64,000 nt of DNA from Castellaniella caeni NBRC 101664 (lineage in GTDB: Bacteria; Pseudomonadota; Gammaproteobacteria; Burkholderiales; Burkholderiaceae_B), in NCBI RefSeq assembly GCF_001592225.1, contig NZ_BCWN01000002.1, forward strand, positions 62,001 through 126,000, in the 5' to 3' direction. Positions 2,145 through 61,095 of the stretch are shown piece by piece. Position 1 is the first letter of the stretch. Every line of letters begins with the position of its first letter. The notes under the pieces are model-generated. The model searched no databases, was not told the origin of the DNA, and saw only the letters and a program-made list of their open reading frames with translations. The translations under genes and the position numbers were made by a program.

Positions 2145-3377
2145 ATGAACGCCCCCCTGACACGCGATATGCTCCACTCACTGGAAAAGGCGCCGGCGCA
2201 CGCCGACCAGGCCGTCGAAACCTTTCTGTCGCACGGCACCCGCTCGCCCAAGGAATACGGCGGCACGGTGAACCCCCCGGTGTGCCGCGCCTCGACCATC
2301 GTCTTCGACAACATGCAGGACATGGACGCGCGCCAGGAAGCCATCGACCACGATGAGACCGGCGTGATGTGGTACGGCCGCAAGGGCACGCCCACCACGT
2401 TCGCCCTGCAGGAATCGATCGCCTACCTGGAAGGCGGCTACCGCACACTGCTCGCATCATCGGGGCTGGGCGCCTGCATCGCGGCGCTGTCGGCCTTCGT
2501 GAAGGCGGGCGACCACGTGCTGATGAGCGACAGCGTCTATGGCCCTACGCGCCACTACGCCACCGCCATTTTGTCGCGCTACGGCATCACGACCACGTTC
2601 TATGACCCGCAGATCGGCGCTGGCATCGAAGCCCTGATCCAGCCCAACACACGCGTCGTCTACGTCGAATCGCCGGGCTCGCAAACCTTCGAAATGCAGG
2701 ACATCCCCGCCATCGCCGAGTGCGCCCACCGGCACGGCGCCCGTGTAGTGCTTGACAACACCTGGGCCTCGCCGCTGTACTTCAAGCCCTTCGAGCACGG
2801 CGTGGACGTCTCGGTGCAGGCCTGCACCAAGTACATCACCGGCCATTCGGATGCGCTGCTGGGCTCGATCACCACGACCCAGGACACCTGGCAAGAAGTG
2901 CGCAACCACGTCTACGCCCACGGCCTGAACGCCGGCCCGGACGACATCTATCTCGCGCTGCGCGGCCTGCGCACGCTGTCGGTGCGCCTCGAACGCCACC
3001 AGCGCAACGCGCTTGAAGTGGCCCAGTGGCTGGCCGCGCAGCCCGAAGTCGAGCAGGTGCTCTACCCCGCCCTGCCGGGGGCGCCGGGCCACGAAATCTG
3101 GAAGCGCGATTTCACCGGCGCCTCGGGCCTGATGGGGCTGGTGCTCAAGCCCTGCGCACCGCAGGCCCTGCGCGACTTCGTCGACAGCCTGGCACTCTTT
3201 CATCTGGGCTTTTCCTGGGGCGGCTTCGAAAGCATGATCATGCCGCAAGTGGACATGCCCACGCGCAACGCCTCGCAGTGGCCCTACCAAGGCCCGCTCG
3301 TGCGCCTGCACATCGGTCTGGAATCGCCCGACGACCTGATCGCCGATCTGAAAACGGGCTTCGCCCGCCTGGCCTGA
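2145..3377 (+). CDS. metC: cystathionine beta-lyase / cysteine desulfhydrase family (PLP)
   Basis: 410-residue Cys/Met-metabolism PLP enzyme. The Schiff-base lysine is Lys229 in CTKYITGHSDALLG, and the cofactor region includes SSGLGACIAAL and the VYVESPGS and VVLDNTWASP blocks. MetC-type enzymes split C-S bonds of cystathionine, cystine or cysteine to pyruvate, ammonia and a thiol or sulfide. The start ATG follows the divergent regulatory gap. Downstream cystine-type transporter genes and the DecR-like regulator suggest that cysteine/cystine cleavage, rather than only methionine synthesis, is the local role. Length is close to the family norm of about 395. Confidence 0.85.
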   Translation: MNAPLTRDMLHSLEKAPAHADQAVETFLSHGTRSPKEYGGTVNPPVCRASTIVFDNMQDMDARQEAIDHDETGVMWYGRKGTPTTFALQESIAYLEGGYRTLLASSGLGACIAALSAFVKAGDHVLMSDSVYGPTRHYATAILSRYGITTTFYDPQIGAGIEALIQPNTRVVYVESPGSQTFEMQDIPAIAECAHRHGARVVLDNTWASPLYFKPFEHGVDVSVQACTKYITGHSDALLGSITTTQDTWQEVRNHVYAHGLNAGPDDIYLALRGLRTLSVRLERHQRNALEVAQWLAAQPEVEQVLYPALPGAPGHEIWKRDFTGASGLMGLVLKPCAPQALRDFVDSLALFHLGFSWGGFESMIMPQVDMPTRNASQWPYQGPLVRLHIGLESPDDLIADLKTGFARLA

Positions 3378-3850: not shown

Positions 3851-4651
3851 ATGAAACTGCATTCACTGATTCTGAACGGTGCGCTGCTGGCCGCCGCGCT
3901 GAGCGTCACGGCCCCCGCCGTCCAGGCCCAGGATCTGCTCGACAAGGTCAAGGCCAGCGGCACCTTGGTCGTGGGCCTGGAAGGCACCTACCCGCCCTTT
4001 GGCTACCGCGACAGCGCGGGCAAGCTCACGGGCTTCGACGTGGACGTGATCACGGCGGTGGCCCACCAGCTGGGCGCCAAGCCCCAGTTCGTCACGACCG
4101 AATGGAGCGGCATCATCGCCGGCCTGCAGGCGGGCAAGTTCGACGTCATCGCCAACCAGGTGTCCATCACGCCCGACCGCGAAAAGGCGCTGGACTTCAG
4201 CGTCCCCTACATCTATTCCGCCGCCCAGGTGATCCAGCGCAAGGACGACCAGACGGACTACAGCTCGCCCGCCGCCTTCAAGGACAAGAAAGTGGCCGTC
4301 GTGCTGGGCAGCAACTACGTGCCCATGGTGAAAGCCATCCCGGGAGCCATCGTCAAGACCTACCCCGGCGCCGTCGAGTTTCTCAGCGATCTGGCGGGCG
4401 GACGCCTGGACGCGGGGGTAAACGACCGCCTGCTGCTGCCCTACCTCATCCGGCAATCCAACCTGCCGCTGCGCCAGGGCGCCCTGCTGCCGGGCGAATC
4501 GACCAAGATGGGCATCCCTTTCCGCAAGGGCAACCCCGCGTTCGCCAAGGCCATCGACGCCGCCTTCCAGACGATGCGCAGCGACGGCACCCTGAAGACG
4601 CTGTCGAAGAAATGGTTCGGCGCCGACGTGACCGAAGCGCCGCAACCCTGA
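3851..4651 (+). CDS. ABC transporter substrate-binding protein, cystine/polar amino acid type (family 3)
   Basis: 266-residue periplasmic binding protein. Residues 1-27 form a Sec signal ending AVQAQ, followed by the family-3 signature around GTYPPFGYRDSAGKLTGFDV. GGAGAC precedes the ATG by about eight bases. Similar proteins bind cystine, glutamine or histidine; the neighbouring metC-type lyase and DecR-like regulator favour cystine. The permease and ATPase genes follow after a gap with a stem-loop, an arrangement that commonly gives excess binding protein over permease. Confidence 0.85.
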   Translation: MKLHSLILNGALLAAALSVTAPAVQAQDLLDKVKASGTLVVGLEGTYPPFGYRDSAGKLTGFDVDVITAVAHQLGAKPQFVTTEWSGIIAGLQAGKFDVIANQVSITPDREKALDFSVPYIYSAAQVIQRKDDQTDYSSPAAFKDKKVAVVLGSNYVPMVKAIPGAIVKTYPGAVEFLSDLAGGRLDAGVNDRLLLPYLIRQSNLPLRQGALLPGESTKMGIPFRKGNPAFAKAIDAAFQTMRSDGTLKTLSKKWFGADVTEAPQP

Positions 4652-6220: not shown

Positions 6221-6868
6221 ATGTCGAACACAGCAGTTCTGTATACGGATCACGGTTTTGGCAGCCCCTATGCCATGTCGGCCTATGTGGCCCTGGCCGA
6301 AAAAGGCGTGGATGTCGAGCTGATCAAGGTTGACCTGGATCACGGTGCCCAGCACCGGCCCGACTACCTGGGCCTGTCCATGACCGGCAAGGTGCCCACC
6401 CTGGTGCACGACGGCTTTGCCTTGTCGGAATCGTCGGCCATCGCCGAATACATCGACGACACCTTCCAGGGGACGGCCCTCTATCCCAAGGATCGCCTGC
6501 AACGCGCCCGTGCCCGGCAGGTGCAGGCCTGGCTGCGCACCGACCTGGGCGCCATCCGCGAAGAACGCTCGTCGGGCAATCTCTTTGCCAAGCCCGCGCA
6601 CGCCCTGCCCGCGCTCAGCGCCCCCGCGCGCCAGGCCGCCGACAAGCTGATCGCGGCGGCCGAACAGCTGCTGCCCGCCGGCAGCGTCAACCTCTTCGAG
6701 CACTGGAGCATCGCCGACCTGGATCTGTCGCTGATGCTCAACCGCATGGTGGCCGTGGGCGACCCGATGCCCGCCCGCCTGGTGGAATACGTGCGCCACC
6801 AATGGAGCCGCCCCTCGGTGCAACGCTGGGTGGCGCTGGATCGCACGCCCGCCACCGCCGCCGCATAA
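6221..6868 (+). CDS. yfcF: YfcF-like glutathione S-transferase
   Basis: 215-residue glutathione transferase. A thioredoxin-like N-terminal domain contains the glutathione-contact block VPTLVHDGFALSESSAIAEY, followed by the all-helical C-terminal domain. The stretches RARARQVQAWLRTDL, IREERS and SIADLDLSLMLNRMV agree with E. coli YfcF, which has glutathione-dependent peroxidase activity. GGAGACC precedes the ATG. It follows the ABC ATPase by 35 bp and may share its transcript, fitting a thiol/peroxide theme. Confidence 0.8.
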   Translation: MSNTAVLYTDHGFGSPYAMSAYVALAEKGVDVELIKVDLDHGAQHRPDYLGLSMTGKVPTLVHDGFALSESSAIAEYIDDTFQGTALYPKDRLQRARARQVQAWLRTDLGAIREERSSGNLFAKPAHALPALSAPARQAADKLIAAAEQLLPAGSVNLFEHWSIADLDLSLMLNRMVAVGDPMPARLVEYVRHQWSRPSVQRWVALDRTPATAAA

Positions 6869-7662: not shown

Positions 7663-9159
7663 ATGAACCACACTCTCGGCATCACCACTGCCACCGCCTT
7701 GCGCGCCGCAGACACCGCCAGCGCCGGCCACGACGGCACCAGCACGGCATATGTCAGCCTGCTTTTCCCCGCCATACCAGATGGGGGGCCGCACGAGCAA
7801 AAGCCCCCCGCCTATTTTGTCGACCTGAATCTCGATCAGCTGGCCAAGACGCTGGCCGGAGACGATGACGCCTACGACCTGCTGCCGCTGCTTTATACGG
7901 CCGCACCGCGCGTCGAGACCATCACACATCGGCACGCCATCTTCCGCGATCTCGAAAAACCGCCCATACAGCAGGCGGTGGAGTCCTTTCTGCAAGGGCT
8001 TGAACAAGCCGCCGAGCAGCGCGGGCGCATGGGCAAGGCGCACCACCCGCACGAGGCCAGCCGTCGGCTGCTTGACGCGCAAAAGATCTACTGCGAAGCC
8101 GTGCGGGCGTTCGCCGGGGCGCTGCGGGCCGCGCAACCCGCGTCCGTCGGCTTCCGGAGCCTGGCCGACTATCTGGACACCTACATCCGCGGCGATGCGC
8201 TGCTGGCCCTAGAAGCTGAAACGACGGCCCTGCTCGAAGCACTGGGAACCGTCCGCTACGATGTGCTGATCCAGAGCCTGCACGTGGAAGTGAGCCGCCA
8301 CCAAGACGAACCCGATTACGGCGCGGAAATCGCCCGGATGTTCGAACGGTTTCAGAGCGGGCGCGTGGCGCAGGCCACAGCGGCACCGTCGAAACCCGTG
8401 GGGCGCTGGAGGCTGGCGGAAGAACCCTGGCTCAACGCCGTGGAAGAACGCATCCTCACGCAACTTGCCATGCTCTTCCCGGCACTGTTCACACGCATCG
8501 ACAGCTACGTGCGGCGCTACGCGGAGTATGCCGACGAAGTCGTCGTGCGCGTGGCGCGCGAGCTTCACTTCTTCCTGGCATACCGGCACTACATCGCACC
8601 GCTGCAGGTTGCGGGCCAACCCTTTTGCTATCCCTCCTTCGCACAGCCCGGCGAGCCGATCGCCGCCAGCGAGGCCTGCGACCTGGTGCTGGCCCATCAC
8701 CTGGCAGCCAACGCAAAGCGCACCGTCAGCAACGACTTCAGACTCGACCCACCCGAGCGCCTGCTGCTGATCTCGGGGCCAAACCAAGGCGGCAAGACCA
8801 CGCTGGCGCGCACCTTCGGTCAACTGCACCACTTGGCGCGCCTGGGGGTGCCGGTGTCGGCACGCTCGGCCGTGCTGCTCTGGTGGAACACCCTCTACAC
8901 ACATTTCGAACGGGCCGAGGACATCCACAACCTGCACGGCAAGCTCGAAGACGACCTGGTGCGCATGCACGCCATCATCACGCACTCGGATGTGCACAGC
9001 GTCGTCATCATGAACGAGGTCTTCAGCTCCACCACGACCGACGACGCGCGTTACCTGGGCGAATGCGTCCTGCGCCAGCCGCCGGACGGCAAGGCATACG
9101 CACACGCCCTTGCGGCCAAGCACCATCTCACACGCAAAGATCTGGAGGCACGGATATGA
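7663..9159 (+). CDS. MutS-like ATPase, first of a coupled pair, apparently internally shortened
   Basis: 498-residue protein with a helical N-terminal region (residues about 1-340, no MutS mismatch-reading domain) and a MutS-type ATPase domain. Walker A is GPNQGGKTT (residues 372-380) and Walker B is SVVIMNEVFSSTTTDDA. Relatives that I recall continue after Walker B with a hydrophobic strand and a VTFIDEL-like switch before the RPADGLAYA block. Here LGECVLRQ runs directly into PPDGKAYAHALA, so about 50 residues seem to be lost in frame. The next gene overlaps by ATGA, so the two are translated together. The function of these MutS-related proteins is unknown; absence of the lever, clamp and mismatch domains argues against classic mismatch repair. 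Confidence 0.75.
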   Translation: MNHTLGITTATALRAADTASAGHDGTSTAYVSLLFPAIPDGGPHEQKPPAYFVDLNLDQLAKTLAGDDDAYDLLPLLYTAAPRVETITHRHAIFRDLEKPPIQQAVESFLQGLEQAAEQRGRMGKAHHPHEASRRLLDAQKIYCEAVRAFAGALRAAQPASVGFRSLADYLDTYIRGDALLALEAETTALLEALGTVRYDVLIQSLHVEVSRHQDEPDYGAEIARMFERFQSGRVAQATAAPSKPVGRWRLAEEPWLNAVEERILTQLAMLFPALFTRIDSYVRRYAEYADEVVVRVARELHFFLAYRHYIAPLQVAGQPFCYPSFAQPGEPIAASEACDLVLAHHLAANAKRTVSNDFRLDPPERLLLISGPNQGGKTTLARTFGQLHHLARLGVPVSARSAVLLWWNTLYTHFERAEDIHNLHGKLEDDLVRMHAIITHSDVHSVVIMNEVFSSTTTDDARYLGECVLRQPPDGKAYAHALAAKHHLTRKDLEARI

Positions 9160-11334: not shown

Positions 11335-11817
11335 CTCTCTGGAGAGACTGCCCGGACGCCCCCAGGGCAAGCCCCAGGCTTCTTCAGGCGGCAAACACGA
11401 ACGGCACTTGTCACCGATATCCGCGTCGTGTATTCTGCGGCTGCAGCACCCGGAGATGACATCCTCCTGAACCGCCGTCATACGGCTGATGATGTCTGGC
11501 AATACCCAAGACCTGTTTCGCCTGTACGGGCCGGTTTCGGGTATGGTGGCCACCGGGGGCATCACTGCGTCACACAAGCTCTCTGGTGGTTCTTCGGCAC
11601 GAAACGCTCAAGGATCGTCATGGGCTCCAGACAGCCTCTCACGGCAACGCTCAGTTGCCCTCAATCCGTATCAGACGGCGGCTTTGCCCGCCTGCCGGGG
11701 CGCACCCGGCTTGGACGTCATCCATATTCGAAAACCGTACGATCCGCTATTCAAGCCGGCCTTCGTCGCCTGAGACCATGCGCATTCCAAGTTTCGCTCA
11801 CCACTTAGGAAACGAAA
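11335..11817. other. 483-bp stretch with no convincing gene
   Basis: Open frames here (for example 11489-11773 on the plus strand) have proline- and serine-rich translations with no recognisable domain and no good ribosome site. I see no RNA gene, terminator or repeat that I would defend. It probably contains the promoter of the DUF190-like gene near 11800. Confidence 0.4.
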
Positions 11818-12862: not shown

Positions 12863-13684
12863 TCAGGCCGCCTTCGTGGTGACGACGACTTCCAGGTATT
12901 CTCCGGGCACGACGAGCGAAGCATCGCCGCTTTGATTGGCGCCACGCAGCAACTCGAGAATCTCTTGTGCCAGCGCCTGCTGCCGCTCGGGGGCGAGCGA
13001 GGCAAGCACTTTGTGGGTCGGGCCATAGCAGGCCTCGAAGACCTCCAGCCAGTGCTCTGGCGAGCGGTAGCGAAACATGAAATTGCGCGCTTGAAGCTGT
13101 AGCGCGTGACCAGCGAACAGCGCCTGCAGGCCTTCGGCCGTACCCCAGCGGGTGGATGGCTTGAGCCCCGGCACAGGGGTCGCATACTGGGCGACGAGCT
13201 TGAGCAGCCTGCCGATGAATCCGCCGGGCGTCCAGTTTGCCAGGCCGATGCGCCCACCAGGCACCACCACGCGGGCCAGTTCGGCGGCGGCCTGTTCCTG
13301 ATTGGGAGCGAACATGACGCCAAACGTGGAGAGCACGACGTCGTAGCTGCCATCGGCAAAAGGCAGCGCCTCGACATCCGCCTCTTGAAACGCGACGGGC
13401 AGGCGCTCTGCCGCGGCCCGCAGCCTGCCCTGCTCCAGCCACTCGGACACATAGTCGGTCGAGGTGACGTCGGCAAAGCGTCGCGCAGCGGCCAGCGTGG
13501 CATTGCCATTGCCGGCGGCCACGTCGAGCACGCGGCTGCCCGCGCGCAAATCCACGGCCTCGCACAGGTTTTCACCCACGATTTGCAGCGTGGTGCCAAT
13601 GACCGCATAGTCGCCTGAAGCCCACACGGCGTGCTGGCGCTGCTTGATGGCCTGGTAATCCAGGCCGGAGGTTCCGGTCAGCAT
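12863..13684 (-). CDS. class I SAM-dependent methyltransferase (UbiE-like)
   Basis: 273-residue methyltransferase with motif I VLDVAAGNGNATLAAA, motif post-I STDYVSEWLEQ, and the DVEALPFADGSYDVVLSTFGVMFAP block common to UbiE/Methyltransf_11 proteins. The start at 13684 is chosen because GGAGACAACC stands immediately upstream; the longer frame adds 26 unlikely residues. The substrate is unknown. The gene is close to the left edge of the toxin-antitoxin-rich boundary and may be the last chromosomal-type gene. Confidence 0.8.
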   Translation of the reverse strand: MLTGTSGLDYQAIKQRQHAVWASGDYAVIGTTLQIVGENLCEAVDLRAGSRVLDVAAGNGNATLAAARRFADVTSTDYVSEWLEQGRLRAAAERLPVAFQEADVEALPFADGSYDVVLSTFGVMFAPNQEQAAAELARVVVPGGRIGLANWTPGGFIGRLLKLVAQYATPVPGLKPSTRWGTAEGLQALFAGHALQLQARNFMFRYRSPEHWLEVFEACYGPTHKVLASLAPERQQALAQEILELLRGANQSGDASLVVPGEYLEVVVTTKAA

Positions 13685-13948
13685 GGTTGTCTCCTTCGAT
13701 GGATTGCGCGGCGGGCCTGTCCATCGCCCGGTCGCACCCGGATCCATACTCCGTACGTTCAATCATGCGCCTGGCATACCAGCCCCGCCAGCGGTTTTTT
13801 GGGGGGTATCGGGCGCGAGTGCCCCCACCCCATCGGACGCGTGCCCGCCGCGTTATCATCAAATTGGCCGGGTACGGCCCACCGTTGCCCCCCTGCGCCA
13901 GGGCGCGGGTGCCCTCGTCCATGAGCACGGATTGCAACCCTGGAATAT

Positions 13949-14155
13949 ATGAACGAGCCCGATGCAGAATGGCAAATCCATGGGTATCCAAATACTGCCT
14001 ATCAAGCCGTCGAGCAGGCCTTGCGCGATCAGCGGTTGATCCTGGTATCAGGAAGCCAGTACCAGGCGATTCTGGACATACTGGATCGGCCAGAGTCTGA
14101 CAACCCGGGTTTGCCTGATCTGTTTTCTCGCCACCCCGTCTGGGCCAATCCATGA
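13949..14155 (+). pseudogene. C-terminal fragment of a DUF1778/TacA-like antitoxin
   Basis: The 68-residue translation (TAYQAVEQALRDQRLILVS followed by QAILDILDRPESDNPGL and RHPVW) matches the C-terminal half of DUF1778 antitoxins, which neutralise GNAT toxins. The N-terminal ribbon-helix-helix DNA-binding part is missing and no GNAT toxin follows. The ATG at 13949 has no good ribosome site. I take it as a remnant. Confidence 0.5.
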
Positions 14156-47549: not shown

Positions 47550-49148
47550 TTGTCTACCCTGATCTCCCCCATCACTCGGCGGCGCATTGCCGCCTTCTCC
47601 CTGGCGCTCTTTCCCATCGGGGCCTGGATGACGGCAGCCACCTATGGCAGCGGCATCGCCTGGCGCGACTGGAATCGCCAGATGGCCTGGCATTTCGTGA
47701 AACTCACCCCCGGCTATCCCCTGCTCTACGGGGCGCTGGGCGTGGGCCTGGTGCTGGCCCTGGCCTTGATCCTCTTTATCGGCCGCACTGCGAAAACGGA
47801 AGGCTTCGAGGGGGCCGCCTACAAGCATTTCGTGCGCGGCACCCGGATGACTACGGCCAAACATCTGGCAAAGCTCTGCACAGAACCTGGCAAACAGCAG
47901 ATCGACGTGGCAGGCATCCCCATGCCTACTGCAAACGAAAACCTGCATCTACTGGTGAGCGGCGCCACGGGGTCCGGCAAATCGGTGCTGCTGCGCAATA
48001 TGGCGGCGTCTGTGCTGGCACGATCCCGCAGTCATCAGCACCACTTGCCCGGCCAACCATCCATGCACAACGACCGCATGATCGTCATCGACCCGAACGG
48101 CGATCTGCTGAGTAAATTCTGGCAACCCGGCGACGTGATCCTCAACCCCTACGATGCCAGAAGTGAGGGCTGGTCCTTCTTCAACGAAGTCCGTGCCGAC
48201 TACGACTGGAAGCGCCTGGCGCATTCTCTAGTGCCCATGAGCCAGGACAAGAACGCCGAGGAATGGAATGATTTCGGGCGGCTGCTGCTGCGCGAAACCG
48301 CAAAGAAGCTGCACCAGCTGCAAGGCCCTGAGGCCAACATCATGGATCTGTTCCGGCTGTGCACCATCGAGGACCCGAAGGTGCTGAAGCAATTCCTGGA
48401 CGGCACCCTGGCAGAATCCCTGTTTGTCGGCTCCAGCGAAGCCAGCAAGGCCCTCTCGTCGGCCCGGTTTGTGCTGTCCAACAAGCTGTCGGAACACACC
48501 AGCATGAAACCTGGCCCCTTCTCCATCCGTGACTGGCTGGACAGGCCGGACGGCGGGAATCTGTACATCAACTGGCGCGAAGACATGATGAGCTCCATGC
48601 GGCCCCTCGTGTCCTCCTGGGCTGATGTCTTCATCACGTCGATTCTGTCTATGCCCGAAGGCACCGACAGGCGCTGGTGGCTTTTCATCGACGAGCTGGC
48701 CAGCCTGGAGGCGCTGCCGTCACTGGAAGCGGGGCTCACCAAAGGCCGCAAAAATGGGCTGCGCATCGTGGCTGGCCTGCAAAGCACATCCCAGCTGGAA
48801 CACCTGTACGGCAGGACGATGGCCACCACCATCCGGGCGAGTTTCCGCAACCTGGTCGTGTTGGGCGGATCCCGTACCGACCCGCAGACCGCCCGCGACA
48901 TGAGCGAAAGCCTTGGCAAACACGAGGTCGAGCGGCCAAAATACAGCGTCAGCCGCAGCGTGGATCATCGGAACACGTCGGATAACATGGATCGGACGGT
49001 TGAGGACGTGGTGACGGCGGCGCAGATCCAGGCACTGCCGGTGCTGGAGGGGTATGTGGCACTGGCTGGGGATTTGTCGGTGGCGAGGGTGAGGATGCCG
49101 ATTCAGCAGTTTGGCGAGGTCGCTATGTCATTCCAGGATGGAAAATGA
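47550..49148 (+). CDS. traD: TraD/TrwB-type (VirD4) coupling protein
   Basis: 532 residues. Two N-terminal membrane helices (about 12-34 and 53-77) anchor it; Walker A is GATGSGKS (138-145), MIVIDPNGDLLSKF and WWLFIDELASLEALP (Walker B) follow, and the C-terminal RecA-like part ends with the IVAGLQSTSQLEHLYG block. It is of TrwB size. The start is TTG with AAGGA upstream; an older ATG version may be the one at 46955. It hands the relaxase-DNA complex to the VirB channel. Confidence 0.9.
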   Translation: MSTLISPITRRRIAAFSLALFPIGAWMTAATYGSGIAWRDWNRQMAWHFVKLTPGYPLLYGALGVGLVLALALILFIGRTAKTEGFEGAAYKHFVRGTRMTTAKHLAKLCTEPGKQQIDVAGIPMPTANENLHLLVSGATGSGKSVLLRNMAASVLARSRSHQHHLPGQPSMHNDRMIVIDPNGDLLSKFWQPGDVILNPYDARSEGWSFFNEVRADYDWKRLAHSLVPMSQDKNAEEWNDFGRLLLRETAKKLHQLQGPEANIMDLFRLCTIEDPKVLKQFLDGTLAESLFVGSSEASKALSSARFVLSNKLSEHTSMKPGPFSIRDWLDRPDGGNLYINWREDMMSSMRPLVSSWADVFITSILSMPEGTDRRWWLFIDELASLEALPSLEAGLTKGRKNGLRIVAGLQSTSQLEHLYGRTMATTIRASFRNLVVLGGSRTDPQTARDMSESLGKHEVERPKYSVSRSVDHRNTSDNMDRTVEDVVTAAQIQALPVLEGYVALAGDLSVARVRMPIQQFGEVAMSFQDGK

Positions 49149-50358: not shown

Positions 50359-53259
50359 ATGATCTCGCACAGCCAGATCTATCGGGCCCGTGCGGCCCTT
50401 GCGACCCACTACTATGCCGACCAGGCCGACGATTACTACAGCCGCGACGGCAGTGCCGCCACCTGGCAAGGCGATGGTGCCCGGCGCCTGGGCGCAGTCG
50501 GTGCCATCGACCCCGTCCGCTTCAAAGCCATGCTGCAAGGTGATTTTGGCCATGGCATCACAGCCAGTCAATCCGTGCGCAAGGATGCCAAGGCCCGCGC
50601 CGCGCTGGATCTGACCTTTGGTGCGCCCAAAAGCATCACGCTGCAGGCGCTGATCGGCGGCGACGAGCGCCTGATCCAGGCGAACGATGACGCCGTGGCC
50701 ACGGCCCTGGCCTACGTCGAACAGCACTTGGCCATGGGCCGCAGGAAGGAAAGCGGTAAGTCACGGGTGGAGCACACGGGCAATCTCATCATCGCCAAGT
50801 TTCGCCACGAAACAGCCCGGCCTACGGAAGACGCGGCACCGGACCCGCATCTGCACGTCCACGCGTTGCTCATGAACCTGACGCAGCGGGCCGACGGCCA
50901 GTGGGTGGCGTTATCCAATGAACAGATCTTCCAGCTGCTGCGGGTCACCGACTCCATCTATCAGGCGACGCTGGAGCGCAATGTCCGGGCGCTGGGCTAT
51001 GCCGTGCGCCACGAGAAAAACCATATCGAGCTTGCCCATATCAGCCGGGAGCAGATTGAATTCTTCAGCAAGCGCAGCGCAGGGATCACGGCAGAGCTCA
51101 CAGCACGCGGTACCAGCCGCGACCAGGCTCCGCACGCCCTTCGCCAGGGTATCACCCTCGCCCACCGGCAGCAGAAGACCCAGGCCTACAGCCGGGCCGA
51201 GCTGCAACATGAGTGGCAGGCGTCGGCTCAAGCCATCGGCATGCGGTTTGACCAGGCTGGCCTGCAGACAAGCGTGCAGCCACAGCAGGAAGCCAGCAAT
51301 GCCTCCAATCTGGTAGCCCAGGCATCGCTGTCATGGGCAATCCAGCACCTGGCCGAGCGCGAATCCGTCGTGCCCTTGGCCGATCTGCTGCAAAGTGCCG
51401 TGCGCCACGCGGGCGGTCATACGGACGTCACCACCATCCAGTCGGCCATTCAGGCCCGGGTACAGGCAGGGACACTGATCCAGGAAGCCCCACACTATTG
51501 CAGCACCCAGGACATGAAAGCCACACCCATGACCCGCGACGGTTGGGCGGCCGAAGTCGTTCGCCTGCGCGGGGCCTCGCAGGATGCAGCCTTGCAGCTG
51601 GTCGATCAGGCGATCACCCAAGGGCGGCTCTTGATGGAAAGCCCCCGCTACGCCACACGCAAGGCCTATGAGGCAGAATCCCGCATTCTGGCGGCCGAAG
51701 CAAACGGCCGCCGTGCCTGGCAGGCTCCCATCACCAGCGCCATGGCCGAGGCTGGGCTGGATGAGCGCCTGACCCCAGGCCAGCGCGAAGCCGTGATGCT
51801 GATTGCCAGCGACACCGACCAGATCAGCGGCATCCAGGGCTTAGCCGGGACCGGCAAGTCTTTCGCGCTGCAAAACGCCCAGACCATCCTGCAGCAGAAG
51901 GGCCACAGCCTGGTGGCGCTCGCCCCCTATGGCGGCATGGTTCGCAATCTGCGCAAGGATGGCGTGCCCGCCAATACCGTGGCCTCGGTACTGGCCGCCC
52001 GCGACAAGCGGGCCTTCACCAGCCAGCTGGGCCCACAGACCGTGGTGGTAATCGACGAAGCCGGGGTCGTGCCCGTGCGCCAGATGGACAGGCTCCTGGC
52101 GCTCATCCAGCCCACCGGCGCGAAGGTGGTGCTGCTGGGCGACACGGCCCAGACCAAAGCCATCGAGGCGGGCCGCGCCTTTGCCATGCTGCAGGAACAC
52201 GGCATGAAGACCGTACTCATGGGCGACATCCAGCGTCAGCGTTCCGAGCGGCTGCGCCAGGCCGTGCAGCTGGCCGCCAGTGGCCAGGCCAGTCGGTCCC
52301 TGCCCTTGCTGGATCGGGTGCTGACGATCCCGGATCAATTCGCTGTCGATGAACACGGTCAGAAGACCCGCGACAGCTCGGCCCGGTATGAGGCCATCGC
52401 CCAGGCCTATGTGAAGCTGCCTGCCGATCAGCAGGCCAGCACCATCGTCGTGACTGGTACCAACACCTCCCGCCAGGCGATCAATGCCCGCATCCACGCC
52501 CTGCGCGGCCTAGAGGGCCAGGGCCAACGCTGCCAGCTGCTGTCGCGCCACGACACCACACGGGCCGAACGCAGTGTCGCCCGGTATTACACCGTGGGCG
52601 ATATCGTCGTACCGGAACGTGACTACCAATGCGGCCTGAAGCGCGGGGAACTGTATCGGGTGACTGGCATCCCCCACCATGATCGCATCACGGTGCAGGC
52701 GGTGAACACAGGTTCGCCAGGGCCGGTACCCATTGAACTCATCCCCCGCACCATGGGCAAGCTCTCGGTCTATCACCTGAACGAATCCGAGCTATCCGTG
52801 GGCGACCAAGTGCGCATCACCCGCAACGATGCCCAGCATGACCTGGTCAACGGCCAGCTGGCGCGGGTTGTCGGCATCGAGGCCAGCACCGTCACCATCG
52901 AAACTGGCAACAGAAGCATCACCCTGCCGACTGACCAGTCGCTGCACCTGGACTACGCCTACACTACCACGGCGCACAGCGCCCAGGGCCTGACCTGCGA
53001 CCGGGTACTGTACAACGCGGAAAGTTTCAGCCGTACCACGGCCCAGGATACCTACTACGTCAGCATCTCGCGCGAGCGCCATGAGGTCGTGGTGTTCACG
53101 GATGATGCCGACAAGCTGCCGGAACGGGTGGATCGGCTGGGGATCAAGGGGCTGGCGCATGACCTGACCCAGGCGCACGTCGAAAGCCCAGCACCACACC
53201 TGCACCGACCCGATGTGGTACCGGAACGGCGGGCAGAATCCTCAATGGAGATCAGTTGA
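50359..53259 (+). CDS. traI: MobF relaxase-helicase TraI/TrwC
   Basis: 966 residues, the size of TrwC. The N-terminal relaxase has catalytic tyrosines near the start (HYYADQADDYYSRDG, residues 17-18 and 26-27) and the three-histidine metal site PDPHLHVHALL (His164, 166, 168). The C-terminal helicase has Walker A GLAGTGKS (494-501), Walker B VVVIDEAG and late motif TTAHSAQGLTCDRV. It nicks the transfer origin, stays bound to the 5' end and unwinds the strand. GGAGCACCC precedes the ATG. Confidence 0.93.
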   Translation: MISHSQIYRARAALATHYYADQADDYYSRDGSAATWQGDGARRLGAVGAIDPVRFKAMLQGDFGHGITASQSVRKDAKARAALDLTFGAPKSITLQALIGGDERLIQANDDAVATALAYVEQHLAMGRRKESGKSRVEHTGNLIIAKFRHETARPTEDAAPDPHLHVHALLMNLTQRADGQWVALSNEQIFQLLRVTDSIYQATLERNVRALGYAVRHEKNHIELAHISREQIEFFSKRSAGITAELTARGTSRDQAPHALRQGITLAHRQQKTQAYSRAELQHEWQASAQAIGMRFDQAGLQTSVQPQQEASNASNLVAQASLSWAIQHLAERESVVPLADLLQSAVRHAGGHTDVTTIQSAIQARVQAGTLIQEAPHYCSTQDMKATPMTRDGWAAEVVRLRGASQDAALQLVDQAITQGRLLMESPRYATRKAYEAESRILAAEANGRRAWQAPITSAMAEAGLDERLTPGQREAVMLIASDTDQISGIQGLAGTGKSFALQNAQTILQQKGHSLVALAPYGGMVRNLRKDGVPANTVASVLAARDKRAFTSQLGPQTVVVIDEAGVVPVRQMDRLLALIQPTGAKVVLLGDTAQTKAIEAGRAFAMLQEHGMKTVLMGDIQRQRSERLRQAVQLAASGQASRSLPLLDRVLTIPDQFAVDEHGQKTRDSSARYEAIAQAYVKLPADQQASTIVVTGTNTSRQAINARIHALRGLEGQGQRCQLLSRHDTTRAERSVARYYTVGDIVVPERDYQCGLKRGELYRVTGIPHHDRITVQAVNTGSPGPVPIELIPRTMGKLSVYHLNESELSVGDQVRITRNDAQHDLVNGQLARVVGIEASTVTIETGNRSITLPTDQSLHLDYAYTTTAHSAQGLTCDRVLYNAESFSRTTAQDTYYVSISRERHEVVVFTDDADKLPERVDRLGIKGLAHDLTQAHVESPAPHLHRPDVVPERRAESSMEIS

Positions 53260-53292: not shown

Positions 53293-53775
53293 CCTGCTAA
53301 ACGGCTTCAAACTGTATGGGGCACGTCACCGGCTTGCCCTACGCCCGCCACCCCAATGTCTCACGACTGTATCTTGCCTGTATCCGTAGCGCATCCAACG
53401 TGCCTCCAAAATGAAATTGTTTGCCCTTATCGGAATGTCTACGCACCATTCGGCCACAGTCGTGGCCGCCGTTGTCCCCGCTGGATCAATGGCTTGCGCC
53501 ATTCCAGTGCTCTATCTGTCCTACATCACCAAGGCCGGCACGTTTCCAGCAAACCATTGATCCACAAAGCTTTTCCCCACCCCGCAAGGGGTGCGTCGTG
53601 TGTGGGACGTTTAAGGCCACAAAGGAGCGCAGCGACTTTGGGGACGGAACGGCCCAGCCTGACCGGAAACCGGGCAGGCAGCGTCACAGCACAGGGCCCC
53701 AGGCAAAGCCTGGGAACGGGGCCAGGCACCCACATCAGGCAAGCCACGATGCAAGGCCCTGCACACATCAAGGGT
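53293..53775. other. 483-bp stretch without a convincing gene
   Basis: The only small candidate is 53411-53560 (plus; 49 codons, MKLFALIGMSTHHSATVVAA with a hydrophobic middle), which lacks a ribosome site and any family match. The right half is purine/GC-rich 3' flank of the terC-like gene. It probably marks the end of the transfer module. Confidence 0.4.
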
Positions 53776-54480
53776 TCAGCCCTCGATCAAAGTACCCCGG
53801 CGACCCTTCAGGTAGAGGCCGAATCCCACCACCAGCAAAGCGCCCACGACTTCGGCAGCAAGCTTCACGGGCAAGCCGACCTCGCCCAGCCACTTCACGA
53901 CGACCACATCGGTCACCAGCATGCCGCCCGCGATCCAGCCCAGCAGCGCGGCACCGAAGGTGACAACCAGGGGAAAGCGATCGATGAGCCTGAGCACCAG
54001 GGTGCTGCCCCAGACGATGATGGGGACGCTTGCGAGCAGGCCGAAGACTACCAGCCCGATCTGGTGATCCGCATGTGCATTCTGTGCAGCACCTGCAATC
54101 GCAATGACGTTATCCAGGCTCATCACCACGTCGGCAATGAGGATGGTCTTCACAGCGGCCAGGATCGACGCGCCACCTGCGACCTTGCTGTGTTCCTCCG
54201 AGTCGGGAAGCATCAGCTTCACGCCGATCCAGAGCAGCAGCAAAGCACCTGCTACCTTCAGGAAAGGGATGGTGAGGAGCGTCAGCGCAAAAGCAATGAG
54301 CACAACGCGCAGGCCAATCGCGCCCGCCGTCCCCCAGATGATGCCTTGCAGGCGCTGCTTCGGTTGCAGGTTACGGCAGGCCAGCGCGATGACGACGGCG
54401 TTATCGCCCCCGAGCAGGATGTCGATCATGATGATCTGAAAGACGGCGGCCCAGCTGAGCGTTTGAAGGAATTCGAGCAT
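53776..54480 (-). CDS. TerC-family membrane protein (YjbE type)
   Basis: 234 residues with seven membrane helices. The family signatures are IDILLGGDNAVVIALACRNL in TM1 and ADVVMSLDNVIAIAGAAQN in TM4, each with a conserved Asp that may bind metal. Such TerC/Alx-like proteins export Mn2+ or metallate secreted proteins. GGAGAAACGA precedes the ATG. A yybP-ykoY leader with terminator lies directly upstream, so expression should rise with Mn2+. The upstream extension of the frame lies within that leader. Confidence 0.88.
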   Translation of the reverse strand: MLEFLQTLSWAAVFQIIMIDILLGGDNAVVIALACRNLQPKQRLQGIIWGTAGAIGLRVVLIAFALTLLTIPFLKVAGALLLLWIGVKLMLPDSEEHSKVAGGASILAAVKTILIADVVMSLDNVIAIAGAAQNAHADHQIGLVVFGLLASVPIIVWGSTLVLRLIDRFPLVVTFGAALLGWIAGGMLVTDVVVVKWLGEVGLPVKLAAEVVGALLVVGFGLYLKGRRGTLIEG

Positions 54481-54563
54481 TCGTTTCTCCGGATGCAGGT
54501 GGTTCGGAACCTGTCTTCGCCTGGAGCCTCCGGCCAGATGATGCGCTTTTGGCGCCTTGGCGC

Positions 54564-54600
54564 ACAAAAACAAAAGGCCTGAACCCCGTGGGGCCAGGCC
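54564..54600 (-). terminator. riboswitch expression-platform terminator
   Basis: On the minus strand GGCCTGGCCCC-ACG-GGGTTCAGGCC forms a stem followed by TTTTGTTTTT. It lies between the Mn2+-type aptamer and the TerC-family start, so ligand binding probably prevents termination. Confidence 0.75.
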
Positions 54601-54750
54601 AGTCGCAGAAAGTAGACGTGCCTTGCCCTGACAGGCAAGGTCTTGCTTGCAGCACGTTGCTGCCCGGGCGCCGGGTTCCTGCACGCGGCAGGTGACCGTA
54701 CTGACGACGCCACGGAAGTAAGCTACTCCCCTTGTTGCGGCGAAATTATA
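54601..54750 (-). promoter_or_regulatory. yybP-ykoY (Mn2+) riboswitch and promoter of the TerC-family gene
   Basis: TATAAT (54750-54745) precedes AAGGGGAGTAGC (54733-54722), the conserved aptamer start. GTCGTCAG and a second conserved part CCCGGGCAGCAACG follow. The aptamer ends near the terminator at 54600. Its layout matches the leader at the left edge of the window (1-84). Confidence 0.82.
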
Positions 54751-55262: not shown

Positions 55263-56069
55263 TCAGGCCTGGTTCAGTGCGTCCAGGTGGCGGATCACGT
55301 CCTTGGCGGCCCATTGGGCATTGCCAGTCAGCTGGCGCACCCAGGCGCTGCGTGTCGGGCTCCAGCGAAAGCCACAACGCTTCAGCACGTCGCGGGTGTC
55401 CTTGGCTGGTTTGCCATCAAACAGGAACATGGCGCGGTTTTCCTGTGGATCCTCGCGGTAGGTGTAGCCGTCCCCCGTCTGCTCAGTTTCGGTGCGCTCG
55501 GCGGCACGCTGCAATTCCTTGATGCGGGCCATGATGCGGTGGATATTGGCGTTGTTGTTCTGCAGCTGGAACGGGGCAAAGCCGATGCGGTTCATATAGT
55601 CCGGAGTCACGAGCTCCCGGGCGCGTTCTGCGTAGGTCAGGCCAGATTCCACCAGGGTGGCCACCTGCACATCGGCCCCCGCCTTGGCATGGCGGCGCAA
55701 GATAGCATTGATCGCCTTCATGGTTTCCTGAATGGCCTGCAGGCTGGCCAGCTTTGCCTGCAGTTTCTCGGTGGCGGCCGGGTCGTCGCTGGAAATCCCG
55801 CCTTTGCCCACCGATGCGGCCTTGCTGGCGTAGTGTTCGGCCTTCTTCTGCAGCTCGAAGGACTTTTCAAAGCCTCGGTTGATGCGTTCGCGGTACCGGC
55901 GGCCGGATCGTTCCGAATGGTGCCCCACCAGGATGGGCTGGCCCATGGGGATGACGTCCGCCATGCGGCTGGCCTGGGATGCAACCGCATCGGATTGTGC
56001 ATGTGCCTGCTCGGCGCGTTCTTCATAGCGGGCCTTGCGCGCTGCCTGCTTGGCTTCATAGGTGTTCAT
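55263..56069 (-). CDS. DUF3560 domain protein
   Basis: 268 residues. The N-terminal part is highly charged (EAKQAARKARYEERAEQAHA) and contains IPMGQPILVGHHSERSGRRYRERI, the hallmark of DUF3560 proteins of plasmids and islands. The C-terminal part (FDGKPAKDTRDVLKRCGFRWSPTRSAWVRQL) is a short DNA-mimic-like or winged module often attached. TTTTGGAGATC precedes the ATG. It lies with a RadC-like gene in what looks like a leading region, but its activity is unknown. Confidence 0.78.
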   Translation of the reverse strand: MNTYEAKQAARKARYEERAEQAHAQSDAVASQASRMADVIPMGQPILVGHHSERSGRRYRERINRGFEKSFELQKKAEHYASKAASVGKGGISSDDPAATEKLQAKLASLQAIQETMKAINAILRRHAKAGADVQVATLVESGLTYAERARELVTPDYMNRIGFAPFQLQNNNANIHRIMARIKELQRAAERTETEQTGDGYTYREDPQENRAMFLFDGKPAKDTRDVLKRCGFRWSPTRSAWVRQLTGNAQWAAKDVIRHLDALNQA

Positions 56070-56129
56070 GGTCTGATCTCCAAAACAAGGGTTGAACTGC
56101 TTTTTCAGCTGACCGGACCCGAAGATTCT

Positions 56130-56370
56130 TGAGCCGGAACGTCAATCCGCCGTGTGGGGTTGACGCTGGTTTTCCGGTCTTGCCGCCGTCTTCAGTGAGT
56201 TCCGTCGCCGTGCCGATCTGGACCACGCAGCGCCGAACGGAAAGGGGCAGGCACGCAAGCCGCAGCGCGTAGCCGCAGGCGCAGGGACCGGGTGAGTACC
56301 TGGCAGCGCGCACCCCTTGCAGCGAGAAGCGAAAGTGGTACACGTCGGCGTTTCAGGCGGAGGAAATCAC
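56130..56370 (-). repeat. degenerate ~250-bp repeat, copy A, upstream of the DUF3560 gene
   Basis: Shares with 57265-57530, in the same orientation, GAAAGGGGC.GGCACGCAAG, GGGACCGGGTGAGTACC, GCGCACCCCTTGCAG and GTCGGCGTTT.AGGCGG, plus CCGAAGATTC near the gene-proximal end. It contains CCGGGTGAGTACCTGG, a hairpin with one wobble. Each copy ends 60-90 bp before the start of a minus-strand gene. Confidence 0.75.
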
Positions 56371-56511
56371 GGAAGACGAGATGACGGCCCGATCCAGGCG
56401 ATGACCCCACACGGCAGCTGCGCGGCGAGCGCCCCTAGCCCCGCATCCTCGGGGCTCTGACTGGGCCATGGCCCGCATTCCCGCAGTGGCCCTTGCCAGC
56501 GGCACCAGAGG

Positions 56512-56676
56512 ACAAGGCCGACCGGGGCTCCCTTGGCCCGGTCGGCCTTGTTGCTTGCAGGGTTGCGCTGTTCCTCCGGCCCCTGCCATGCGACCCCAGG
56601 CGCACGGCAGGGGCCGGCCAATCCCGCTTCATGATCGGCCGATCATGCTCACGTCCCCGCCTGCTGCCAGGCGGGG
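56512..56676. repeat. cluster of strong inverted repeats downstream of the RadC-like gene
   Basis: Four elements follow one another. A 15-bp perfect stem ACAAGGCCGACCGGG with its partner (56512-56551); CCGGCCCCTGCC with GGCAGGGGCCGG (56576-56617); the perfect 18-bp palindrome CATGATCGGCCGATCATG (56630-56647); and CCCCGCCTG-CTGC-CAGGCGGGG (56655-56676). The first could be a terminator for radC. Together they form a highly structured block of unknown role. Confidence 0.7.
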
Positions 56677-56704
56677 CGGATCCCCCGCCCTGCCCTGGTT
56701 CCTC

Positions 56705-57235
56705 CTACACTTGCCCGCGTTCGGCCAGCGACGTGGTCTCTGTCGCACTCACCACGATATGGTCCAGTATCCGAACGTCGATCAGGGCCAGCGCCTGTTT
56801 CAGTTGCCGTGTCAGGTGGATGTCGGCAGCGCTGGGTTCTGCGATCCCCGATGGGTGGTTATGTGCCATGAAGAGCGCGGCGGCGTTCAACCGTAGCGAT
56901 GTCTTCACGATCTCGCGCGGGTAGATGTTCGCCTGGCTCAGCGTCCCCATGGCCTGTTCGATGTAGCGGATAGGCCGCAGCTGCGCATCCAGATACAGAA
57001 ACGCGGCGCATTCGTGCCCCAGCCCGGCCAGCTTGGACTGAAAGAATGACCTCACCCGCTGGGGGTTACCCAGTGCATTGTCGATGGAAATCAGGCTGAC
57101 GGCGGCTTCGCGGCCTGCCGCCAGAATCTGGCTGTCGGTGGCAGGCTTATAGCGCCCGCTGGGGCTGCGCACATACAGGGGGTGTGCGTCGTTCATGTTG
57201 TCATAGCTCAGCGCGGCGGTGCTGTTCGTGTTCAT
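56705..57235 (-). CDS. radC: RadC-like JAB domain protein (DUF2466)
   Basis: 176 residues with the JAB metalloprotease-like motif HNHPSGIAEPSAAD (H-x-H-P-S-G...D) and LDAQLRPIRY upstream of it. It is shorter than chromosomal RadC because the N-terminal helix-hairpin-helix is absent, as in plasmid and phage versions. AAAGGAGAAAGCACCC precedes the ATG. Its function is unknown; it is a common leading-region gene. Confidence 0.85.
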   Translation of the reverse strand: MNTNSTAALSYDNMNDAHPLYVRSPSGRYKPATDSQILAAGREAAVSLISIDNALGNPQRVRSFFQSKLAGLGHECAAFLYLDAQLRPIRYIEQAMGTLSQANIYPREIVKTSLRLNAAALFMAHNHPSGIAEPSAADIHLTRQLKQALALIDVRILDHIVVSATETTSLAERGQV

Positions 57236-57264
57236 GGGTGCTTTCTCCTTTCGGGGTTAACCGG

Positions 57265-57530
57265 CTACCGGGGCCGAAGATTCCGAGCCTTTCGTAGGTT
57301 TTGCGGTGTCCGCAGACCTACATCTGGCCCGGAGTGCCACCGTTGCCGTGAGTTCGTCGCCTTGCCGCGCTGGATCACGAAGGGACGACCGGAAAGGGGC
57401 GGGCACGCAAGCCGCAGCCCGAAGGAGAACGAAGAGAAACGAAGGGACCGGGTGAGTACCCGGCGAAGCGCACCCCTTGCAGGAAGGGATGCAGTGATAC
57501 AGTCGGCGTTTTAGGCGGCGAAATCAGGGC
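57265..57530 (-). repeat. degenerate ~250-bp repeat, copy B, upstream of the RadC-like gene
   Basis: Same order of conserved blocks as copy A (56130-56370). It has the perfect hairpin CCGGGT-GAGT-ACCCGG near 57450. The rest of the gap to 57685 shows no gene. Confidence 0.75.
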
Positions 57531-57685
57531 AATGGCTGCCTGCGCCGTGGAGATGGACTTGCGGCTACCGGCCGCGCGGCTGAGCGCCGCCACCGGACAG
57601 AGGACGGTCTGACTTAATGCGCTGTGATCTGGTTCCTGCAGCCCGCCCTGCGTCTCTGTAGGAAGGCCACGGCAGTAGTTCGAAT

Positions 57686-58240
57686 TTAGTATGAGTCATG
57701 ATTTTGCTTTGCGATGCTGGACTCCAGCGCTGCCAGAATGGGACAGTCATCCAACGGCTGGTCCTCGGCCTTACAGACATCAATCAGTTCGCCCAACGCC
57801 TGCGACATCGCTTGCATCGTCCTAATCTTGTGTTCGAGCTGCAATTTCTTTCGGATCGCCAGGCTGCGTACATCGCTGCAGCACGAGCTGTTATCGGCCC
57901 TGAGCTCAAGTAACTGGCGTATTTCCGACAGCGTCATGCCGCAGTGCTGGGCGTGTTTGATGAAGTCCAGCCGGCGCACCGCGTCGTCGCCATACAGTCG
58001 ATAGCCCGCTTCCGTCTTTTTTGCTGGTATCAATAGGCTTTCATCCTCGTAGAAGCGGAGCGTGTCGGTGCTGACCTCTGCAAGTTTCGCGAGCTTCCCG
58101 ATCGTCAACCAGGTACGGTCCCGAGCCACCTCATCGAGCGAGTCGGTCTGGTGCCTACGCCCTGGCGCACGATTTTCGTTTTGAGGTGCCTTGCCGACGC
58201 CAGCGCGGTGTCCTTGGCTTGGCTTGTTTGGTGATTGCAC
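57686..58240 (-). CDS. MerR-family regulator, ZntR/CadR/PbrR type
   Basis: 184 residues starting at GTG with GGAGGA upstream. After a basic 43-residue extension the MerR helix-turn-helix appears ([39 protein letters not shown]). Metal-binding cysteines are in [15 protein letters not shown] and DDCPIL, as in Zn/Cd/Pb sensors. It probably controls the P-type ATPase promoter at 61225-61255. The long N-terminal extension is unusual. Confidence 0.85.
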
Positions 58241-58326
58241 GAACTCTCCTCCGATGAGTGTTTGGCTTAGGGTTCCAGCCGGTTCGCGGCGCTATCCGGC
58301 CCGTCTCAACTGCGCGGACCGGAGGT

Positions 58327-58554
58327 TCAACTGACGATCTTGGTCTCGTAACCGGCTTCACCCAGGCATTCCGCGAGTGCAGCCGGTTCTACCGTTGCCG
58401 TGTCAAACAGCACCTCGATACGTTGGTCGAGCGCCTGTGCGCGGACCTGCCGCACACCCTGCACAGGTGTGAGCAGTCGCGCGACGCGCTGTTCGCATTT
58501 CTCACAGTTGAGGCGTTGATCGCCGATGACTTCGAATGTGACGGACTTGAACAT
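58327..58554 (-). CDS. heavy-metal-associated (HMA) domain protein, CopZ-like
   Basis: 75 residues with the ferredoxin-like HMA fold and a metal site NCEKCEQRV (CxxC). The position between the MerR regulator and the P-type ATPase suggests a metal chaperone. AAAGGTCTTAGCC precedes the ATG. The metal could be Cu, Cd or Pb; the motif does not decide. Confidence 0.82.
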   Translation of the reverse strand: MFKSVTFEVIGDQRLNCEKCEQRVARLLTPVQGVRQVRAQALDQRIEVLFDTATVEPAALAECLGEAGYETKIVS

Positions 58555-58637
58555 GGCTAAGACCTTTCATGAATGACTTGGTTGTTGATCGAGGAGAATC
58601 CTGAACCGGAAACAGGCCAAGAAGGCACGTCTTTCTC

Positions 58638-61095
<2,458 letters not shown>

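Follow-up and report, generated by a model that had tools for sequence, protein, structure and literature searches.

Expression of genes from the incoming strand is thought to let plasmids disarm restriction and SOS responses before the duplex stage. Single-strand origins (sso/ssi) of small plasmids are hairpins, and the radC RNA motif, an Rfam family, is a structured leader located 5' of radC-like and anti-restriction genes. The leaders analysed here lie in the window, i.e. the whole stretch of 64,000 nucleotides of Castellaniella caeni DNA under study. They resemble the radC RNA motif in being structured and in preceding genes of these types, but no Rfam 15 family matches them and the comparison with curated models thus fails. 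They also resemble single-strand origins, since their core is found on plasmids of 2953 and 3378 bp, where it is predicted to form a hairpin that could prime complementary-strand synthesis; however, the core copies located 5' of leading genes carry additional promoter-like arms.

The likeness to Frpo1 and Frpo2 of plasmid F and to ssi1-3 of plasmid ColIb-P9 concerns both structure and position. As in these elements, a long hairpin is predicted on the transferred strand that would rebuild -35 and -10 boxes; the repeats are located 5' of leading-region genes, in the same orientation, and it is only through folding that their boxes come to face the gene. In contrast to Frpo/ssi, the family of the window repeats has a conserved apical core of about 85 nt, which is also found without promoter-like arms. 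In the Bacillus plasmid pLS20, repeated and highly structured sequences (EGeRS1) also precede establishment genes but, according to PMC8708921, the transferred strand is the non-template one and no promoter is seen in the fold. The window leaders do not share this non-template arrangement: the prediction for them is that the template strand is transferred, and their fold shows boxes.

Two leader copies in front of the RadC and DUF3560 genes

The first-pass annotation had pointed to two repeats in the same orientation, each located 5' of a minus-strand gene. Both are present at that place, and the coordinates of the repeats (from the repeat finder and searches), of their cores (from the covariance model R1 described below) and of the genes are as follows.

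55263 to 56069, minus strand: DUF3560 gene (Pfam DUF3560, E 1.3e-35)
about 56110 to 56400, minus strand: leader copy 1, 5' of the DUF3560 gene
56237 to 56321, minus strand: conserved apical core of copy 1 (R1, 74.2 bits)
56705 to 57235, minus strand: RadC-like JAB gene (Pfam RadC, E 1.1e-37)
about 57267 to 57560, minus strand: leader copy 2, 5' of the RadC gene
57389 to 57481, minus strand: conserved apical core of copy 2 (R1, 76.1 bits)

The two copies are identical at 148 of 184 aligned positions in a pairwise comparison. The repeat finder delimited four blocks of 70, 43, 22 and 17 nt (at 84%, 88%, 86% and 88%, respectively), each with a spacing of 1152-1160, and copy 2 used as query against its own genome matched copy 1 with an E value of 1.1e-33. 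Two further copies are carried by contig C29 of this genome, again 5' of RadC and DUF3560, and R1 detects four places in the genome. The R1 scores of copies 1 and 2 come from sequences whose cores both belong to the 23 used for training. No strict sigma-70 duplex site was found on either strand between 56060 and 57760.

A dispersed family distinct from Frpo/ssi

Judged by sequence similarity, the window repeats are members of a dispersed family with a core of about 85 nt. This core, of about 70-90 nt, was first met on plasmids in DNA searches; a profile and then the covariance model R1 (84 positions, 19 pairs, built from 23 sequences) were derived. R1 has matches in 62 of 268 genomes from the taxonomic family of the host and in 5 of 369 sampled across its class, own genome included. 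As had been suggested for verification, further copies were sought in other plasmids, and they exist on F, ColIb-P9, R388, PromA plasmids and others; the R1-positive plasmids are pSB102 and pK1219-2 (PromA), pDSM1084, pAC53, pAV3334-1, pXAC47, pEC14_114, pW11NP1, F, ColIb-P9 and R388, among which F, ColIb-P9, R388, pEC14_114 and pW11NP1 are outside the R1 training set. The training set of the profile included L022, L025 and L026, which were left out of that of R1; R1 recovers the first two and misses L026 (pECO-109b), whose membership therefore rests only on a weak similarity to another leader (E 6e-4). Furthermore, the elements of genomes G410 and G501 sit on contigs of 3.4 and 3.5 Mb and are therefore chromosomal.

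Homology with Frpo/ssi could not be established, since both the profile and the covariance model miss Frpo1 and Frpo2, and BLAST searches with Frpo matched F and ColIb-P9 at their Frpo/ssi sites only. On F (L027), the long repeats at 13404-14012 and 8016-8622 were identified as Frpo1 and Frpo2, respectively, from the positions described in PMC9849209. The core family occupies other places on this plasmid, at 2696-2788 and 6521-6676, before a DUF1281-like ORF and a klcA-type gene. Likewise, ColIb-P9 carries Frpo homologues at three places and the core family at three others, before DUF1281, klcA-type and ardA genes.

Searches of other collections were negative within their scope: copy 2 as query gave no match at E 0.01 among 50,697 phage records, neither the leaders nor five relatives have an Rfam 15 match at gathering score, and the five Rfam matches listed at E values up to 10 all lie outside both leaders. 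At gathering score, the window has a single Rfam match, a fluoride riboswitch (RF01734, 47.1 bits) at 11443-11505 on the plus strand. The DR1/DR2 repeats of RA3 were considered as possible relatives and set aside because the units described in PMC9455977 differ. No description of the family was found in the open-access literature searched (including PMC10104558, PMC4853378 and PMC7213743); subscription work, such as the classic ssi surveys and the paper on the ColIb-P9 leading region, was outside the scope of this search, and the copies on F and ColIb-P9 may have been described there earlier. According to their methods, two published surveys relied on searches with known Frpo/ssi sequences and on consensus-box candidates (PMC11541004, PMC12826799).

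Fold and covariation

The apical core consists of a stem CAAGGG/CCCTTG, a second stem and a conserved TC(A/G)CCCGGTCCC...GGGCTGCGGC element. Its pairing holds in 93.7% of cells over 94 distinct rows, with 186 two-sided changes against a mean of 58 after shuffling, this 94-row alignment having been fitted to the model. The hairpin CCGGGT-GAGT-ACCCGG previously noticed in the repeats is exact in copy 2, whereas copy 1 has CCGGGT-GAGT-ACCTGG, and it is not the main structure: it is only part of the apical core, and the main structure is a long outer hairpin. In an alignment of 35 leader copies made by MAFFT without structure, 92.9% of the cells of the outer hairpin are paired and 39 cells show two-sided changes, compared with 8.5 in shuffles. 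The 35 rows were picked from 104 entries by a pattern requiring TAC. In the window, fold and covariation place the imperfect hairpins as follows.

56179 to 56369, plus strand (putative transferred strand): imperfect hairpin of copy 1
57331 to 57529, plus strand (putative transferred strand): imperfect hairpin of copy 2

Folding of the single strands, also proposed as a check, gave an unequal outcome. Folded as DNA, positions 57325-57530 of copy 2 reach -44.9 kcal/mol with a z score of -2.33, whereas the z score of positions 56175-56375 of copy 1 is only -1.08 and 27 of 200 shuffles are equally good. In the PromA and F-type leaders, the match between the arms is long and includes a small bubble where the -10 is presumed to lie; in the box-less copies compared with them, the arm match is shorter. 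Counts of wobble pairs by strand (25 cells with sense A.C, 29 with sense G.T) single out neither strand.

That the repeats could be remnants of a coding sequence had been named as a possible refutation, and this origin is rejected: the best frame is open in 16 of 35 aligned relatives and none is open in all of them, 260 of 285 internal gaps measure 1-2 nt, and the base pairs covary.

Promoter-like boxes in the outer hairpin

On the antisense strand, the arm that runs from loop to base carries TTG and then TAnnnT in leaders. Copy 2 has TTG-N18-TAnnnT on the plus strand, i.e. TTGCAG-15-TACAGT with TG before it. The boxes predicted from the sequence of the two copies are the following.

56317 to 56322, plus strand: predicted -35 of copy 1 (TTGCAG)
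56336 to 56344, plus strand: predicted extended -10 of copy 1 (TG G TACACG), which fails strict TAnnnT
57477 to 57482, plus strand: predicted -35 of copy 2 (TTGCAG)
57495 to 57503, plus strand: predicted extended -10 of copy 2 (TG A TACAGT), with the A at -11 facing G in the fold

The direction of these boxes depends on the state of the DNA: away from the gene in the duplex, and into it in the fold only. The rebuilding of boxes by the hairpin is supported by prediction and covariation only. Strict boxes (TTG and TAnnnT with a spacing of 15-17 nt) occur in 7 of 16 leaders, copy 2 included, where 0.13 would be expected from shuffled flanks, and in none of 15 non-leader copies (0.24 expected). 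The motif was first spotted by eye, and both lists were picked by hand and include near relatives. The nine leaders without a strict box are copy 1, R388, L018 35612 (pK1219-2), pXAC47, L023 (ardA), both L007 copies, L008 and L021, and one of the seven with a strict box is the doubtful L026. On ColIb-P9, all three copies have strict boxes, including that of ardA. Under looser box rules, all three box positions are found in 12 of 47 clusters.

In the 35-copy set, the TG before the -10 box is kept at 34/35 and 35/35 and T at -7 at 35/35, and the n between TG and TA belongs to a covarying pair (T-A in 27, C-G in 7). The base facing the A at -11 is non-complementary in all 35 copies (33 T/C and 2 T/T, in sense letters). 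Sigma flips out two bases of the -10 box, the A at -11 and the T at -7. Since TAC was the selection rule, its invariance in this set is circular. Moreover, the spacing of the boxes is 15 nt in 31 of the 35 copies and 16 nt in the other 4; 15 nt is short for sigma-70 and counts against a promoter.

Candidate oriT and predicted transferred strand

A wrong transferred strand had been named as the other observation that would refute single-strand promoters. The features of the window that bear on this point are given below.

47550 to 49148, plus strand: TrwB/TraD-type coupling protein gene (Pfam search)
50359 to 53259, plus strand: TrwC-type relaxase gene (Pfam TrwC, E 1.8e-71)
53354 to 53768, plus strand: conserved noncoding block, candidate oriT, flanked by the leading genes and the 3' end of trwC
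53578 to 53605, plus strand: hairpin CACCCC-GCAA-GGGGTG followed by CGTCGTGTGTGG, candidate nic, where the analogy with F predicts a cut after 53605

A noncoding block of about 300 bp is conserved at this place in all seven elements compared. The nic-like motif that follows the hairpin reads TGCGTCGTGTGTGG on the plus strand of the window, TGCGTGGGGTGTGG in F and TGCGTATTGTCT in R388, the nick positions of F and R388 serving as reference. From the oriT-like block and the analogy with F, the plus strand is predicted to be transferred and to run into DUF3560 and then RadC; it would therefore be the template of both genes. An oriT located 5' of the coupling-protein gene, the arrangement of R388, would have implied transfer of the minus strand; this placement was abandoned in favour of the conserved block on the opposite side of trwC.

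Thus placed, the core is antisense on the transferred strand in both window copies, as expected if that strand serves as template. The same orientation was found for both copies of F (19 kb searched), the three copies of ColIb-P9 (69 kb searched) and the two clear matches of R388. PromA copies were oriented with the MOBP nic consensus: 5 of 12 follow the rule and 7 are inverted (only the first 50 kb of pSB102 were searched). Of the seven inverted copies, six are just behind operons running the other way and the seventh precedes a minus-strand gene. Annotated plus-strand genes follow four of the five non-inverted copies; the fifth (pSB102 36968) precedes an unannotated plus-strand ORF at a place where the record has a minus-strand gene. 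The inverted copies, on the minus strand at 4435, 24892, 35217 and 41442 of L018 and at 6675, 11073 and 42518 of L019, are without promoter-like arms and show TCGCCCGG/GCGGCCT in place of TCACCCGG/GCGGCTT.

In six related elements, the RadC, DUF3560 and SSB genes are co-directional and face the 3' end of trwC, the SSB gene having been assigned by Pfam for one of the six. No match to an SSB gene was found in the window element, in which RadC and DUF3560 are present; the related second element on contig C29 retains ssb. The regions 53776-54684 and 57686-61095 of the window element include a MerR-type regulator (Pfam) and ORFs with an apparent resemblance to TerC and a P-type ATPase.

Genes located behind the leaders

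Family copies have the position expected for elements acting on leading-region (establishment) genes: they are followed by ardA, klcA-type antirestriction, DUF3560, ParB-like, methylase and DUF1281 genes. ArdA, Antirestrict (klcA type) and DUF1281 behind the ColIb-P9 copies were confirmed by Pfam, as were HTH_ParB and N6_Mtase on pDSM1084 and DUF3560 on pK1219-2, where a DNA_methylase match remains below its cut-off; the genes behind the two copies of pAC53 are annotated as ParB-like and DUF932. The ArdC gene of R388 begins about 380 nt beyond a copy, with an apparent strong duplex promoter between core and gene. This promoter is contained in shorter R388 repeats, located between core copies and genes, which were excluded from the core family.

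Among the 35 copies nearest to those of the window, 15 precede DUF3560 and 13 RadC (from the N-terminal sequence), and 7 have another or no clear gene. From the end of the core to the start codon, the distance is 157-168 nt for DUF3560 and 151-177 nt for RadC, 27 of these 28 copies falling within 151-168 nt and the remaining one at 177. On ColIb-P9, ardA begins 78 nt after a copy, and PMC9849209 reports its early expression after entry.

Near the start codons, both window copies share a block CTC.GAATCTTCGG..CCGGT (56140-56165 and about 57290-57320), and a short hairpin that differs in each copy lies between the promoter-like hairpin and the start codon. The CTC.GAATCTTCGG block is also found 5' of a ParB-like gene (L007) and of a DUF932 gene (L026).

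Proposed function and alternative explanations

We consider it probable that the repeats are a second sequence class of single-stranded DNA promoter or initiation hairpin, distinct from Frpo/ssi, although no transcription was measured. The single-stranded promoters proposed by the first-pass annotation are thus supported as a prediction, with the reservations that activity was not measured, that copy 1 lacks a strict box and that no homology to Frpo/ssi was detected. The repeats, the family, the covariation of the hairpin, the box positions, the gene contexts and the strand orientation relative to oriT-like sites are computed, while the binding of RNA polymerase, the pulse of expression and the position of the nick are inferred only. 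During conjugation, the plus strand would enter the recipient first and the repeat would fold on itself, one arm providing the -35 and extended -10 boxes and the other the template, with the maintained mismatch at the -11 A easing opening. Host RNA polymerase would then transcribe out of the base of the hairpin into RadC and DUF3560, and likewise into ssb in the relatives that keep it. Synthesis of the complementary strand would abolish the hairpin and turn the boxes away from the genes; we therefore propose that expression takes the form of a pulse. Priming of DNA synthesis, which has been described for Frpo, may be a further function of the hairpin.

The covariation of the structure would be equally compatible with an RNA acting in the 5' UTR as a riboregulator or antitermination element, with a promoter further upstream. 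We regard such an RNA leader as rather unlikely, without dismissing it. The position of the leaders and their nearly constant distance to the start codon would suit it, as would a further conserved block between core and start codon: the CTC.GAATCTTCGG block is superfluous for a single-strand promoter and might be needed by an RNA leader. However, the -35 and -10 boxes and the -11 mismatch are on the antisense strand, where they would be useless in RNA, and such a leader finds neither a strict sigma-70 site on either strand of 56060-57760 nor any Rfam match. The EGeRS1 leaders of pLS20 are a structured precedent for which single-strand promoters were held to be highly unlikely by the authors, as stated in PMC8708921; however, the transferred strand is non-template there, whereas here it is predicted to be the template. 

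Arm-less copies, many of them inverted, on PromA and small plasmids could instead suggest that the hairpin only primes the complementary strand on incoming DNA, without any role in gene expression, and Frpo is described as serving both purposes in PMC11541004 and PMC7736820. Initiation alone nevertheless appears improbable, as it accounts neither for the near-fixed distance of leader copies from the start codons of establishment genes nor for boxes seen in leaders only. Finally, a regulatory region of the ordinary duplex kind, or a dispersed non-autonomous element lacking any single-strand function, could be multi-copy, dispersed and in both orientations, as observed on PromA plasmids. We give very little credit to either, since the long hairpin covaries, the orientation of the copies follows the transferred strand for the window, F, ColIb-P9 and R388, and no strict duplex promoter was found at the window leaders.

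With the single-stranded promoter as the preferred explanation, a broader proposal, toward which we lean only slightly, is that of an unrecognised second promoter class spread across IncF, IncI1, IncW and PromA plasmids and betaproteobacterial chromosomal transfer elements, from which ardA, klcA-type, DUF3560, radC, ParB-like and methylase genes would be expressed on the strand that has just entered. The apical core would then be a separate single-strand recognition module, also used without promoter for priming or protein loading. The existence of box-less copies, small-plasmid copies and inverted copies indicates that the core has a function of its own; whether complementary-strand priming or protein loading, this role is a guess. 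If the hairpins are active, establishment genes that are not directly behind Frpo, such as ardA of ColIb-P9 and the klcA-type gene of F, would gain a promoter, and it would become possible to read, from sequence, the leading regions found in many plasmids of environmental origin and in many chromosomal transfer elements.

Other occurrences of the core

One of the small plasmids with a core has a 'protein rep' gene. The core at 2453-2537 (minus strand) of L020 belongs to a 2.95-kb plasmid listed from Pseudomonas, Serratia, Klebsiella, Citrobacter, Salmonella and others, and neighbouring accession numbers suggest, without having been checked, that PromA-like plasmids are present in some of the same strains. 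The core is also found in resistance regions: L005 325-409 and L006 2995-3079 are copies of this kind, with floR as a neighbour in the case of a 7.7-kb IncQ1 plasmid and mobV/sul2 in that of a Vibrio plasmid. Moreover, an 87-nt variant of the core lies about 370 nt 5' of a 77-aa ORF in L042, L044, L047, L068 and relatives; this ORF, for which no HMM was run, presumably resembles the VbhA/Fic antitoxin. A 78-nt variant is located 5' of apparently phosphatase-like ORFs in L089 and L083.
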